A stretch of 39,632 bases of DNA from Roseococcus sp. SDR (GTDB taxonomy: Bacteria > Pseudomonadota > Alphaproteobacteria > Acetobacterales > Acetobacteraceae). Position 1 is the stretch's first letter; every line of letters starts with the position of its first letter. Positions 14,016 through 34,617 of this stretch are shown one piece after another. The position numbers and the translations under genes were made by a program. The notes below the pieces were generated by a model. It had not been told where the DNA came from and did no database searches. It saw nothing but the letters and a program-made list of their open reading frames with translations. The stretch spans positions 1 to 39,632 of the forward strand of contig NZ_JAHRCU010000030.1 of NCBI RefSeq assembly GCF_019083995.1. Direction: 5' to 3'.

Positions 14016-14020
14016 GGCCG

Positions 14021-14038
14021 GGGGGGCATCCGCCCCCC
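14021..14038. terminator. GC hairpin just after the M20 gene
   Basis: GGGGGGC and GCCCCCC arms enclose ATCC, starting five bases after the M20 stop. There is no U tract, so it may be a transcript-end stabiliser instead of an intrinsic terminator. Confidence 0.35.
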
Positions 14039-14042
14039 TCCC

Positions 14043-14161
14043 AAACCCATCCGGCCGCACCGCGGCCGGCGCCGCCCAACCGGGCGCATGGCCCATCGCG
14101 CGCGCGGCGCGGCGAAGCCAAGGCGGCGGAGCCGCCGCCCGGCGCTTGAGGGTGGAAAAAA
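14043..14161 (-). repeat. family-1 hairpin repeat, copy C (after mscS-type gene)
   Basis: Read on the minus strand, this element starts one base after the channel gene stop: a T run, CCACCCTCAAGCGCCGGGC, stem GGCGGC, loop TCC, stem GCCGCC, then TTGGCTTCGCCGCG. A second hairpin follows with arms CCGGCCGC and GCGGCCGG (14051-14069). Copies at 33924-33979 and 33980-34098 share the flanks and loop but have different, still complementary stems. The 14043-14161 and 33980-34098 copies align over most of their length in opposite orientation. Confidence 0.85.
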
Positions 14162-16402
14162 CTACCCCGCTCGCGCCTCCGGCGCGAGCATCCCCTGACC
14201 CAGCGTCAGGCCGCAGGCCTGGGCGAGATGCACCACGTCCAGCAGGAATTCGTGCTTCGTCTCGCGCTCGGCCGCCGCATTCGCCACCTTCATGTAGGTG
14301 ATCACATCCACGCCAATCCCGCCCTCGGTGATGCCCGAGAGCCCGATATCCGTGCGCTCGGCGACGAAGATCTCATCCTCCCTGATGCGCTGGCGCAGCG
14401 CCTGGATGAAAGCCTCCAGCGCCTCGGGGTTCGCGCCCGCCGTCACCGGCAGCGTCGTCTTCAAGAGGCGCAGGCGGCGCGAGCCCAGGTTGTTGATGGT
14501 GGAATCCGACAGCTTCCCGTTCGGGATCACCATCACGCTGTCCTGCGCCGTGCGCACGCGGGTCGAGCGGATGCCGACATGCTCGACCGCGCCCTCGATC
14601 TCGCCGCTGCTGATCCAGTCGCCGCGCTGGAAGGGGCGGTCCGTCACCAGGATGCCGGCGCCGAAGACGTTGGACAGCGTCTCGCGCGAGGCGAAGGCGA
14701 AGGCGAGGCCGCCGATGCCGAGGCCCGCGATGATCCCGCTCGTCGGGATCGAGAGGAAATGCGCGGCGCTGAGGAAGCCCACGACCACCACCATCAGCCG
14801 CGCCGTCGCCAGCAGCAGGGTGAAGAGGATGTCGTCGGTCGCACTGGCCGAGCGGCTGGAGATGCGGGCCAGGATGATGCCCGCCGCGCCGAAGACCCGC
14901 CAGGCGACGACGCAGGCCGCGATGGTGAGGCAGATGCCGAAGAAGGGCAGGGAGTAGCGGCGGAAATGCTCCGGCATGCCGATCAGGTCGGGGAAGAAGG
15001 CGGCGAGGCTGAGGCCGATCACGATGCCGAGCGACCAGGTGAAGCTCGCGCCGCTCTCCTCGCCGCCCACCATCCAGTCCATGCCGCGCCGTGCGAGCCG
15101 CGCGCCGAAGGTGCCGGCCAGCGCGGCGGCGCCCATCACCAGCAGGCCCATCAGGATCTGCCAGTATTCCGTCTGCCCGACCCGGCCCAGCAGCGCCGGC
15201 GCATGGGCCTTGGCCAGGTCGCGCAGTTCGAAGAAGCGGGCGGGCGGGATCAGGCCGGGCGGCGTGGCGAGCGGCGGCGGCAGGCTTTCCACGGCGTTGA
15301 AGATGCGCGCCGCATCGCGCACGGTCTGCGCGGTGAAGCGCCAGGGCGCATTCGCCTCGGTGCCGATGGGGGCGATGATGATGCTGCCCGCCGGGTGGCT
15401 GAAATGGATGTAGGGCGCGCGGTCCGTGCCGTCATTCGGGATGGATTGCAGCCCGACCAGGCCGATATGGTTCAGCGCGCGGCGCAGGAATTGCGCGGCC
15501 ATGGCGCCCTCGCCCTCCCGCAGCACCTCGGGCACGGAGGAGAGGTCGAGCGCCGAGAGCGCCAGCGCGCGGCCATCGCCCTGCCAGTCGGCCATGCCTT
15601 CCAGGAAGCTGCGCATGGTGTCGCGCGGGTTGCGCATCTGCCGGTAGGCATCGGCCGGCGGGAAGCGCCCGCCGGTCGCCGCCAGGAGGTGCCGGCGCGC
15701 CGCATCCCGCGCGGCGGCATCGGGCATGCGCAGCCGCCACAGCCCGTCCTCGCCGCGGATGAGGGTGAGTGCCAGCCGCACATCGCTGCCCGATTGGACC
15801 AGCGTGACGGGCAGCTCCGTCTCGTCCGTGACCTGCGGGATGGCGCTGATGCGGAAGGTGGTGAGGTCCACCAGCGCGAAAAGCTCCTGCGTCAGGCGCA
15901 GATGCTCCTGCCGGCCCAGACCGGAATCCAGCCCCGAGAAATCCACGGCACCGATCGCGAGCGCCCAGGCGTCGGTCCGGCCGCTGCGCGCCAGGTTGGA
16001 ACTGACGACGAATTGCCGGAAGGCATCGCGCGGGGTGGCCTGGTTCAGGCCCGTGGCGGCCGGCGCGGCCTGGGTGCGCGCACCCGTCCACCACTCGCCC
16101 TCGTCATAGCGGCCGGTGAAGCTGTTGCCGTCGCGGTCCATGACGAAGACGAAGCGGCCGCTCTCCCGCCCCTGGGTCCAGCTGCCCTCCAGCGTGCGCC
16201 CCTCGGCCACCGCCTCGATCCGCCCGCCATAGAGCGGGTAGCTGCCGGTGACCCGGTTGCCCTCCTGTCGGAGGATCAGATGGTCGCCATCGTCACGCCA
16301 GCTCGTGATCCATTCGCCGGTCCAGGGCCCGTTCGCCAGCGCGGCCAAGGGCAGCAGGAGCCAGAGGGCGAGGGCGGCGAGGTGGCGGCGCATGGCGCTC
16401 AC
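14162..16402 (-). CDS. MscS family mechanosensitive channel with large N-terminal domain
   Basis: A 746-residue inner-membrane channel of the small-conductance mechanosensitive family, which vents solutes on osmotic downshock. A signal peptide (about 1-23, LAALALWLLLPLAALA) precedes about 380 residues of predicted periplasmic sequence. Membrane segments follow at about 412-434, 451-472, 482-513 and 524-551. The pore helix and MscS core are GIIAGLGIGGLAFAFASRET and NVFGAGILVTDRPFQRGDWI (about 552-595), followed by the beta/alpha vestibule domain. The start is GTG at 16402 after GCGGAAAGC; the ATG three codons on is an alternative. The N-terminal domain begins with a small beta-rich repeat-like part (GEWITSWRDDGDH, GNSFTGRYDEGEW) and is not recognisable as a named family. 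Confidence 0.92.
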   Translation of the reverse strand: MSAMRRHLAALALWLLLPLAALANGPWTGEWITSWRDDGDHLILRQEGNRVTGSYPLYGGRIEAVAEGRTLEGSWTQGRESGRFVFVMDRDGNSFTGRYDEGEWWTGARTQAAPAATGLNQATPRDAFRQFVVSSNLARSGRTDAWALAIGAVDFSGLDSGLGRQEHLRLTQELFALVDLTTFRISAIPQVTDETELPVTLVQSGSDVRLALTLIRGEDGLWRLRMPDAAARDAARRHLLAATGGRFPPADAYRQMRNPRDTMRSFLEGMADWQGDGRALALSALDLSSVPEVLREGEGAMAAQFLRRALNHIGLVGLQSIPNDGTDRAPYIHFSHPAGSIIIAPIGTEANAPWRFTAQTVRDAARIFNAVESLPPPLATPPGLIPPARFFELRDLAKAHAPALLGRVGQTEYWQILMGLLVMGAAALAGTFGARLARRGMDWMVGGEESGASFTWSLGIVIGLSLAAFFPDLIGMPEHFRRYSLPFFGICLTIAACVVAWRVFGAAGIILARISSRSASATDDILFTLLLATARLMVVVVGFLSAAHFLSIPTSGIIAGLGIGGLAFAFASRETLSNVFGAGILVTDRPFQRGDWISSGEIEGAVEHVGIRSTRVRTAQDSVMVIPNGKLSDSTINNLGSRRLRLLKTTLPVTAGANPEALEAFIQALRQRIREDEIFVAERTDIGLSGITEGGIGVDVITYMKVANAAAERETKHEFLLDVVHLAQACGLTLGQGMLAPEARAG

Positions 16403-32978: not shown

Positions 32979-33923
32979 ATGCCTCGCATCCTCACGCTCG
33001 CCGGTGCGCAGACCGGCCCCATCCAGCGCGCCGACAGCCGCGCCCATACGCTCGACCGCCTGATCGCGCTGCTGGAAAGCGCCGCGACGCAGGGCGCCCA
33101 GCTCGTCGTCTTCCCGGAACTCCCGCTCACCACCTTCTTCCCGCGCTGGTTCATCGAAAGCACGCAGGAGCTCGACACCTATTTCGAGCGCGCGATGCCC
33201 AACCCGAACTGCCAGCGCCTTTTCGACCGCGCGCGCGAACTGCGGGTCGGCTTCCACCTCGGCTATGCCGAACTCACGCCGGAAGGCCGGCGCTTCAACT
33301 CCGCCATCACGGTGGGGCCGGATGGGCAGATCCTCGGCAAGTATCGCAAGGTGCATCTGCCGGGCTCCGTCGAGCCCCGTCCGGGTGCCCGCTTCCAGCA
33401 GCTCGAGAAGCGCTATTTCGAATATGGCGATCTCGGCTTCCCCGCCTTCCGCGGCCCGACGGAATGGCACCGCGCCATCATGGGCATGCTGATCTGCAAT
33501 GATCGCCGCTGGCCCGAGGGTTGGCGCTGCTACGGGCTGCAGGGCGTCGAGGTCATGGTGATGGGCTACAACTCCGCCGCCTATGACCCCAATGGCGGCG
33601 AGAGCGAAAGCGCCGAACTCCGCACCCAGCACTCCACCATGTCCGTGCAGGCCAATGCCTACATGAACGCGACCTGGGCCGTCGCCGTCGCGAAGGCGGG
33701 CAATGAGGACGGCTCGGGGCTGATCGGCGGCTCCTGCATCGTGAGCCCGAACGGCATCATCGTGGCCCAGGCGAAGACGCTGGGCGACGAGGTGATCCTG
33801 GCCGAGGCGGATCTCGATGATTGCCTGCAGGGCAAGGAGAAGATGTTCAACTTCGCCCAGCACCGGCGGCCCGAGCATTACCGCCGCATCGTGGAGCAGG
33901 TGGGGGTGGAACCCCCGGCTTGA
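32979..33923 (+). CDS. N-carbamoyl-D-amino-acid hydrolase (nitrilase superfamily)
   Basis: A 314-residue carbon-nitrogen hydrolase with the Glu-Lys-Cys triad in the expected places: Glu47 (FPELPLTTFFPRW), Lys124 (KYRKVHLPG) and Cys173 (MLICNDRRWPE). The TTFFPRW and CNDRRWPE contexts and the length are those of D-carbamoylases, which cleave N-carbamoyl-D-amino acids to D-amino acid, ammonia and carbon dioxide, the last step of hydantoin breakdown. The ATG at 32979 gives the family N-terminus. A hydantoin-racemase-like gene and ureidoglycolate lyase lie next on the opposite strand. The stop codon is followed at once by two hairpin repeats. Confidence 0.93.
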   Translation: MPRILTLAGAQTGPIQRADSRAHTLDRLIALLESAATQGAQLVVFPELPLTTFFPRWFIESTQELDTYFERAMPNPNCQRLFDRARELRVGFHLGYAELTPEGRRFNSAITVGPDGQILGKYRKVHLPGSVEPRPGARFQQLEKRYFEYGDLGFPAFRGPTEWHRAIMGMLICNDRRWPEGWRCYGLQGVEVMVMGYNSAAYDPNGGESESAELRTQHSTMSVQANAYMNATWAVAVAKAGNEDGSGLIGGSCIVSPNGIIVAQAKTLGDEVILAEADLDDCLQGKEKMFNFAQHRRPEHYRRIVEQVGVEPPA

Positions 33924-33979
33924 TTTATGCCCTCAGGCGCCGGGCGCGCACTCCGTGCGCTTGGCTTCGCCGCGAAGAG
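33924..33979 (+). repeat. family-1 hairpin repeat, copy A (directly after carbamoylase stop)
   Basis: TTTATGCCCTCAGGCGCCGGGC, split here as a T-rich start and CCCTCAGGCGCCGGGC, is followed by stem GCGCAC (33946-33951), loop TCC and stem GTGCGC (33955-33960), then TTGGCTTCGCCGCG. It begins on the base after the TGA of the carbamoylase gene. Same order and spacing as copies B and C, but a different complementary stem. Confidence 0.85.
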
Positions 33980-34098
33980 TTTTTGCCGCCCTCAAGCGCC
34001 GGGCGCGGCCTCCGGCCGCTGGGCTTCGCCGCGCGACGGGTGCGCTGGGCCCTGAGGTCAGTTGGGCGGCGCCGGCCGCCTTGCGGCCGGATGGGTTT
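33980..34098 (+). repeat. family-1 hairpin repeat, copy B
   Basis: A T run and CCGCCCTCAAGCGCCGGGC, stem GCGGCC (34005-34010), loop TCC, stem GGCCGC (34014-34019), then TGGGCTTCGCCGCG. A second hairpin CCGGCCGC / GCGGCCGG with loop CTT lies at 34072-34090. Over its length it matches the 14043-14161 copy in reverse orientation. Confidence 0.85.
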
Positions 34099-34117
34099 GT
34101 GAGCGCTGCCTCCGGTC

Positions 34118-34140
34118 TGGCGCCCGGCCCTTGGGCGCCA
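34118..34140 (-). terminator. hairpin adjoining the ureidoglycolate lyase stop codon
   Basis: TGGCGCCC (34118-34125) and GGGCGCCA (34133-34140) enclose seven bases, and the stem touches the TAG stop at 34141-34143. There is no U tract. Confidence 0.5.
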
Positions 34141-34617
34141 CTACTCCACCAGCAGCACCGGCTCCGGCAGCGTCGCCCATTCCTCGTCGCGCGCCTTCTC
34201 GCCCGTGCTCCACATGAGGATGGCGAAGCGGCCCGGGCGGTCGAGCACGCGCAGCGGGTGGTGCCAGCTGCCCAGGTGGTAGTTCACCGCCTGGTCGCCG
34301 CGCACGAGAAACGCCTGGAGTCCGGCCATATCCGGCGCGCCGTCGCGGTCGGGCGCCACCATCACCACCCAGCGCGACACATCCATCGGCACGAAGCATT
34401 GCGAGGAGCGGTTGTGCCGCTCCATCTGCGTCGCCAGCAGGGGCAGCGCGACCGGTTCCGCATGGTTGAAGGCAAGGGCGGGCAGCACGGCGCCATCTTG
34501 CGCCACCAGCGTCTCGCCCAGCGCCGGGCGCGCGCCGAGCGCCGGCGGGTCCATCACGTCGCCGAAGGGGCGGAAGGCCTCCGCCGTCAGCGGTTGCAGG
34601 CGCAGCGTGCGGGGCAT
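34141..34617 (-). CDS. allA: ureidoglycolate lyase (AllA family)
   Basis: A 158-residue cupin-like enzyme that splits ureidoglycolate into glyoxylate and urea at the end of allantoin breakdown. Family features are the start RLQPLTAEAFRPFGDVMD, the central MERHNRSSQCFVPMD (about 70-84), VAPDRDGAPDM, and the metal/substrate region VNYHLGSWHHPLRVLD near 110. The size fits AllA. Its ATG shares one base with the stop of the racemase-like gene, so the two form an operon. The product glyoxylate could feed serine-glyoxylate aminotransferase encoded in the same window. Some AllA-like proteins have other substrates, so the exact role is inferred. Confidence 0.88.
   Translation of the reverse strand: MPRTLRLQPLTAEAFRPFGDVMDPPALGARPALGETLVAQDGAVLPALAFNHAEPVALPLLATQMERHNRSSQCFVPMDVSRWVVMVAPDRDGAPDMAGLQAFLVRGDQAVNYHLGSWHHPLRVLDRPGRFAILMWSTGEKARDEEWATLPEPVLLVE

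Follow-up and report, generated by a model that had tools for sequence, protein, structure and literature searches.

A dispersed family of palindromic mosaic elements, probably REP-like, at gene edges in Roseococcus and other Alphaproteobacteria

RIME, BIME and ERIC are mosaic palindromic repeats. The repeat described here is like them in description, with several palindromes per element, a location between genes and modules that occur alone or combined. CGTC REPs, as characterized in passages of Di Nocera 2013 (PMC3733652), are found mostly in the Alphaproteobacteria, although the Acetobacteraceae are reported to lack them, and no transposase is dedicated to them. They have a CGTC tag, a stem of 8–9 bp with A-T in the first pairs, a loop of 4–5 nt and mostly a CCA tail. 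The Roseococcus repeat is likewise alphaproteobacterial, and no dedicated transposase was found for it, but it has a different tag, a G-C stem usually of 6 bp, a loop usually of 3 nt and a host within the Acetobacteraceae. The repeat family is probably REP-like: mosaic palindromic elements, dispersed through extragenic DNA, that spread as DNA hairpins and whose stem is required only to pair. Rather than one regulatory RNA, it seems to be a branch of the palindromic-repeat class that has not been described before. No description of the motif was found in the open PMC literature, subscription papers being outside this scope.

The window, a whole stretch of 39,632 nucleotides from Roseococcus sp. 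SDR, contains three copies, A, B and C. Their positions, their flanks and the stems GCGCAC/GTGCGC, GCGGCC/GGCCGC and GGCGGC/GCCGCC were reported in a first-pass annotation made from the sequence alone, and are as claimed when the sequence is read directly. Copies A and B share a site (approximately 33924–34140) between convergent carbon-nitrogen hydrolase and ureidoglycolate lyase family genes, and copy C is at a second site (approximately 14016–14161) between convergent mechanosensitive channel and M20 peptidase genes. Gene calling agrees with the annotation that both sites are between convergent genes and that A and C are directly behind co-oriented stop codons, the neighbouring genes ending at 33923 (+) and 14162 (-).

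Copy A (33928–33973, +; match to covariance model R1, E=7.0e-12) is truncated behind the first module and has the P1 module only. It is preceded by a T-rich 5' flank, TTTA (33924–33927, +), directly behind the stop of the carbon-nitrogen hydrolase gene (32979–33923), and its P1 stem pairs GCGCAC (33946–33951) with GTGCGC (33955–33960) around a loop at 33952–33954. Copies B and C are full length, with two further helices; each measures approximately 105 nt, not counting the T-rich flank on its 5' side. In copy B, all on the forward strand, the run TTTTT (33980–33984) stands in front of the P1 module (33987–34032; R1 match, E=3.9e-11; in alignment A1), which has P1a at 33998–34000/34022–34024 and a P1 stem of GCGGCC (34005–34010) and GGCCGC (34014–34019) with the loop TCC (34011–34013). 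From RNAalifold on 41 full copies, P2 (34027–34071) is a possible pairing of CGCCGC (34027–34032) with GCGGCG (34066–34071) around a variable segment, and the element ends in the P3 hairpin CCGGCCGC-CTT-GCGGCCGG (34072–34090). Copy C (14043–14161, -; R1 match, E=1.0e-11) is behind the stop of the mechanosensitive-channel gene (14162–16402, -), and its P1 module, with stem GGCGGC/GCCGCC, was read directly at 14109–14154 (-). Copy B folds no more stably than expected from dinucleotide shuffles (z of -0.48 as RNA and -1.09 as DNA); the case rests on covariation, rather than on folding stability.

At both the A and C sites the T-rich start of the element follows a hairpin in the last codons of the upstream gene. 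Adjoining copy C this is the hairpin TGCTCGCGCC-GGA-GGCGCGAGCG (14168–14190, -) at the gene 3' end, followed by a T run (14161–14156), which makes a terminator-like structure directly before the element. The T run of copy B similarly resembles an intrinsic terminator when taken with the hairpin at 33965–33977 of copy A, and in the region 33800–34250 two terminator-like structures were found, against a mean of 0.4 in shuffles. The first-pass statement that the repeats lack a U tract is correct behind the full copies B and C, but a T-rich stretch opens both sites and the truncated copy A with the T run of B is terminator-like. The reading of the element as a terminator was rejected for B and C, which have no U tract right behind the GC stem; the end of copy A is the exception, and the relation to terminators is kept as an association. 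Elsewhere in the window there is a bacterial RNase P class A RNA (2301–2704, -), the only Rfam 15 match in the window at the gathering threshold. The repeat was unmatched there, as it was in eight fetched loci searched at E≤1, where only tmRNA models were found.

The family extends far beyond these three copies. Model R1, built from 51 copies (alignment A1), identifies at least 140 copies in the 5.0 Mb genome of Roseococcus sp. SDR at E≤0.01, all on fetched sequence stretches; this is a lower bound, since only 150 candidates were scored. The contig ends C2, C22, C28, C34 and C39 of the assembly (G000) are within a few hundred bases of repeat copies; contigs thus seem to be interrupted at the repeat, and the genome may hold more copies than were counted. 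The core sequence is GCCCTCARRC-GCC-GGGC-[stem]-TCC-[stem]-TT-GGC-TTCG. A pattern of the fixed flanks and TCC with free stems has 25 sites in the genome, compared to none for the reversed control pattern. Together with the model matches and with the 124 out of 150 genomes of the same family that have no R3 match under stricter filters, this rules out chance matches in low-complexity GC-rich sequence. The TCC loop had been described as constant. It is present in A, B and C and is the usual form, but ATCC, GTCC, CTCC, TTC and TGC are also found across the family in a scan based on the flanks only.

The constant part of the element is a module in which the P1 hairpin and P1a are surrounded by CCTCA, GGGC and TTGGC, all nearly invariant, and the hairpins behind it are exchangeable. 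Subtypes read by eye have a common P1 and different sequence behind it. Their P2 takes the forms CGCCGC/GCGGCG far apart, CGCGC/GCGCG, GGAACGC-TGAA-GCGTTCC, GGATGC-TGAA-GCATCC or GCCGC-ATAA-GCGGC, followed by at least one P3 hairpin. In the 41 full copies, for which RNAalifold draws P1, P1a, P2 and P3, two-sided changes are present in P1 and P3 (three P3 pairs) and absent from P2, with P1a invariant in this set. P3 also differs between orthologous ilvB sites, and other complementary pairs were seen by eye at the P2 position in the subtypes. A variant with further hairpins replacing the GGG internal loop is found at accC and other sites (L227, L220, L245, L158 and L151). Tandem arrays with near-identical copies occur in the genome; one array of four copies (L124:2120-2805) begins approximately 30 nt behind an alphaproteobacterial tmRNA gene. 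A pseudoknot of GCCC (2–5) with GGGC (15–18) was considered and rejected, there being no two-sided pair change and the outer pair being broken in 21 of 66 rows.

The copies are positioned at the edges of genes, as called with a home-made codon-usage caller and not a standard tool. Overlap with called genes never exceeds 20 nt for any of the 140 copies. The 109 one-strand clusters are in convergent (38), tandem forward (37), tandem backward (25) and divergent (2) arrangements, with seven at the end of a contig or stretch. Among gaps of at least 60 nt, those with and without an element number 37 and 9 when convergent, 61 and 80 when tandem, and 2 and 57 when divergent (chi-square, p ~1e-14), counted in loci that were chosen for carrying elements and that include a few overlapping ones, with the result that certain gaps were entered twice. 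No more than 10 nt separate the 5' end of the element from the neighbouring gene in 23/37 tandem forward, 23/38 convergent and 16/25 tandem backward clusters, and relative position, analysed with the full-type tail length, departs from uniform in all three arrangements. In the reverse tandem group, a direct test of 5' against 3' distance did not reach significance (p=0.15). The placement after stop codons noted for A and C is supported genome-wide, most copies beginning no more than 10 nt behind a stop codon. TAG stops are over-represented next to copies (20/47 versus 103/512). T is present at each of positions -7 to -3 in 48–81% of 70 forward copies, and the flank of reverse copies is alike T-rich.

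Reverse copies approach genes from the other side. Thirty clusters have a 5' neighbour that faces the opposite way, and in 19 of them no more than 12 nt lie between the end of the element and the called start codon of that gene, and the GAGG of the reverse element is 5–11 nt from the start codon in 18 of these and 2 nt from it in one. The start-side end reads GAGGAAA in one reverse copy and GAGGAGA in another. This suggests a role for GAGG like that of a Shine-Dalgarno sequence, though not a uniform one. It is put forward as a suggestion only, since the element abuts the ATG of accC in some congeners; in some reverse copies another purine-rich stretch precedes the start.

Compensatory change in the stem was the principal claim of the first-pass annotation, and it is upheld. 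In alignment A1 95.8% of the P1 stem cells are paired, compared to 68.9% in shuffles, and the covariation score is 0.557 against 0.153, with 0 of 500 shuffles as high and the signal destroyed by sliding the partner; the pairs with two-sided change and the further pair types do not exceed the shuffles. Alignment A4 was fitted to the structure of the model and hence leans towards that structure. The unbiased figure is that of the free-stem pattern, in which 24 of the 25 sites have perfectly complementary arms, of seven different arm sequences, when examined by eye. The scan based on the flanks, with no demand for pairing, of all fetched loci found 239 sites, a few of which may be shared between groups since named and congener loci can derive from the same genomes. 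Perfect stems number 214, with 28 perfect arm sequences, a proportion that is biased upwards because many loci, the genome's own included, were fetched via a model that rewards pairing. Its pairs are Watson-Crick in 1394 of 1441 cases, G-U in 4 and other in 43, and its P1a is GCC/GGC in 220 sites, GGC/GCC in 18 and mismatched in one.

Orthologous sites show the same. Upstream of accC, genomes G003 and G010 are 93.6% identical over 264 nt and have an unusual TGC loop in common, yet the stem is GCGCGC/GCGCGC in one and GCCGGC/GCCGGC in the other, with two pairs changed on both sides. Across eight orthologous sites, 26 out of 75 site-genome pairs are filled with an intact core, of which eight are Roseococcus sp. 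SDR itself through the choice of sites. Two or more copies are available at 7 sites, at 6 of which the stems are not the same, yet every one of the 26 filled copies pairs, in a comparison that accepted only stems at least 66% paired and in which 'absent' includes degenerate and variant copies. The number of events is smaller than the number of sites, since related genomes have old copies in common. A recurrent stem, GCTCGC-TCC-GCTCGC, has no pairing in its middle and is found in three named loci and two viral-contig loci; this counts against strict pairing.

These results fit best with a REP-like element constrained as DNA. Copies would spread as DNA hairpins, with an enzyme recognizing the constant unpaired bases. 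The stem would then only have to pair as DNA and its letters could drift in complementary steps, pairing being restored by selection for recognition or by template switching from arm to arm. Copies would survive at the edges of genes, where the element's own ends may replace lost context, with a TGA stop in forward copies and the Shine-Dalgarno-like GAGG in reverse copies. As a secondary effect, the hairpins may influence where the mRNAs of convergent genes end. G-U steps should be tolerated in a helix that is selected as RNA. Constraint at the DNA level, or arm-to-arm correction, is tentatively preferred because G-U pairs are rare, the orientation bias is weak and the folding energy of copy B is not above that of shuffles; the G-U argument is itself weakened because C-to-T steps are rare anyway in a GC-rich genome. 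Selection on an RNA or cruciform structure had been proposed from the three copies. The compensatory stem change behind that proposal stands, but selection on one specific RNA is made less likely by the G-U share of the non-Watson-Crick pairs (4/47) and by the orientation in tandem gaps (37 forward versus 25 reverse, p=0.16).

The foremost alternative, a functional 3'-UTR RNA hairpin whose constant bases are read by a protein or nuclease that sets mRNA 3' ends or stability, would explain the compensation as selection on RNA pairing. It accommodates the P1 covariation, the matched P1a swaps and the two-sided P3 changes, as well as docking within 10 nt of stop codons. REPs of Escherichia coli no more than 15 nt from a stop codon are said, in passages of PMC12306157 and PMC5082802, to stall ribosomes, which is counted in its favour. 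It is nevertheless unlikely: G-U intermediates are few, copy B does not fold above shuffles, and 25 of the 62 tandem-gap clusters face the other way and would give a different RNA with the loop GGA.

Less likely still is neutral upkeep of the palindrome, in which template switching at the fork or conversion between copies homogenizes the arms with no selection on the stem, and the flanks are constant as the copies are young or converted. The discrete, perfectly paired stem types with few intermediates, the tandem arrays and the G003 and G010 pair, where the stem differs and the flanks hardly do, speak for such a process. The flanks are, however, conserved between different families of the class, for which conversion within one genome is insufficient, and the P1a arms stay matched at approximately 22 nt apart with a single mismatch in 239. 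Group IIC introns insert downstream of intrinsic terminators, and a similar insertion, in which the element is a passenger and the T run is a U tract belonging to the terminator of the gene upstream, is very improbable. In its favour, a hairpin of at least 8 bp precedes the T-rich flank in 10/76 forward copies, copy C included, against 13/375 control gene ends examined in a similar, not identical, stretch (p=0.002). Against it, the hairpin is missing from the other 66, and 12/31 reverse or other copies also have a T-rich flank.

A RAYT partner, as had been suggested, was not found: PF01797 has no match in the Roseococcus sp. SDR genome (5/14 control genomes were positive), and among congeners this Y1/RAYT transposase family is present in one and was not found in 19 of 20, where several assemblies are incomplete, some being 57–89% complete. 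No autonomous parent was evident between copies up to 3.5 kb apart, where 15 genes were listed and, of 11 scanned, ten have host-type Pfam matches and one has no match; genes between neighbouring copies include the ATP synthase epsilon subunit, an ABC transporter ATPase and prephenate dehydrogenase. Ten IMG/VR contigs (L263–L272) carry the core and may be mislabelled chromosome pieces. One of these, L270, has an inverted pair of copies 3.4 kb apart; four of the ORFs inside it were scanned and have no Pfam match, and an unrecognized enzyme may be encoded there.

Orthologous sites differ in the presence or absence of the element, and this patchy presence and the tandem arrays suggest that it disperses. 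Neither a target duplication nor a clean empty site was seen among the congeners compared, which are too distant, and no terminal inverted repeats or target-site duplications were noticed by eye around the Roseococcus sp. SDR copies. The CoA-transferase site is filled in 1 of 10 genomes, with unrelated sequence adjoining the element. In IS200/605 elements there is guide/cleavage pairing; a like pairing of a TTGA flank with TCAA in the element was rejected, the flank being too variable.

A more specific version of the preferred reading takes the repeat as a selfish alphaproteobacterial DNA hairpin adapted to gene boundaries in both directions and thereby harmless on insertion. Its 5' end would bring a T-rich stretch, and often TGA, behind a gene, and inserted backwards it would bring GAGG to 5–11 nt from a start, so that some copies, as between accB and accC, might now serve as the ribosome binding site of the host gene. 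The mover would belong to a type of enzyme that has so far not been associated with repeats like these, reading the constant single-stranded bases and checking only that the stem pairs. In this detail the proposal is speculative and we give it a low probability.

The core is also present in other Alphaproteobacteria, patchily. The exact pattern was found in 39 stretches of named genomes, in Roseococcus, Rubritepida, Sabulicella, Falsiroseomonas, Pseudoroseomonas, Roseomonas and Acetobacteraceae MAGs. R1 matches 35 of 120 relatives including Roseococcus sp. SDR, among them all 20 congeners searched. R3 matches are found in 26/150 genomes and 16/91 genera of the family, in 36/387 genomes and 25/264 genera of the class, and in 14/397 genomes of a draw from the phylum, all 14 of which are Alphaproteobacteria, the share of other classes in the draw not being shown. 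One genome of another family (G113) has 117 matches. In a further genome of another family (G114) the core is inside a larger element (L166, L180 and L188, around 1501), which at one locus read by eye is bounded by CTTATACCAA...TTGGTATAAG, has additional hairpins on both its 5' and its 3' side and is MITE-like. Among plasmids only Azospirillum matched the first query, in 16 places in six records, the best place of each being without an annotated feature. By the distributed gene table, which is incomplete, 5/6 of these copies follow a co-directional gene, 4/6 are between convergent genes and none is between divergent genes. In front of the Azospirillum copies (L273–L278, around 2501) stands a long hairpin such as GAGCGTAAAGCCTGAC...GTCAGGCTTTACGCTC, and their P1a is GGC/GCC in 6/6. 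With a second plasmid query, derived from another family, a single Methylobacterium record was matched, and there only by sequence beyond the P1 part of the query. This spread through the class had been missed in the first-pass annotation, as had the reverse copies at start codons, the T-rich 5' flank, the covariation of P1a and the fact that the helices behind P1 are exchangeable.

Where palindromic repeats lack a RAYT, the mode of spread and whether the structure is kept up at the DNA or the RNA level are at issue. This family is abundant, its stem is complementary but hypervariable, its orthologous sites are filled in some genomes and empty in others, and it docks at both stop and start codons, so that both questions become testable in laboratory strains of Roseococcus or Azospirillum.

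Intrinsic terminators are, like the repeat, GC-rich hairpins between convergent genes, but the T run of the repeat is 5' of the element and not behind the stem. Br-REP1 of Bradyrhizobium, from passages of PMC5082802, is of the same mosaic type, including the location in convergent 3' UTRs, and its printed consensus differs from the Roseococcus repeat. The Roseococcus repeat is extragenic, palindromic and multi-copy and has a common motif, and these are the general features of REPs in passages of PMC12306157, in agreement with the REP-like nature first suggested for it. The length given there for E. coli is 14–40 nt; the full element is approximately 105 nt and its P1 module alone is 46 nt. RepRanger identified 1,369 REPs in Lichenicola cladoniae (PMC12306157), and an overlap with the Roseococcus family is possible, the passages of that paper giving no motif for them. 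The GTAG/RAYT REPs are also extragenic palindromes of high copy number located mostly downstream of genes. They have GTAG at the foot of the stem, where the Roseococcus repeat has GCCCTCARRCG (alignments A1 and A2 and the copies read), and they differ from the Roseococcus repeat in its length of approximately 105 nt with several helices and in its presence in a genome where no Y1/RAYT gene was found.
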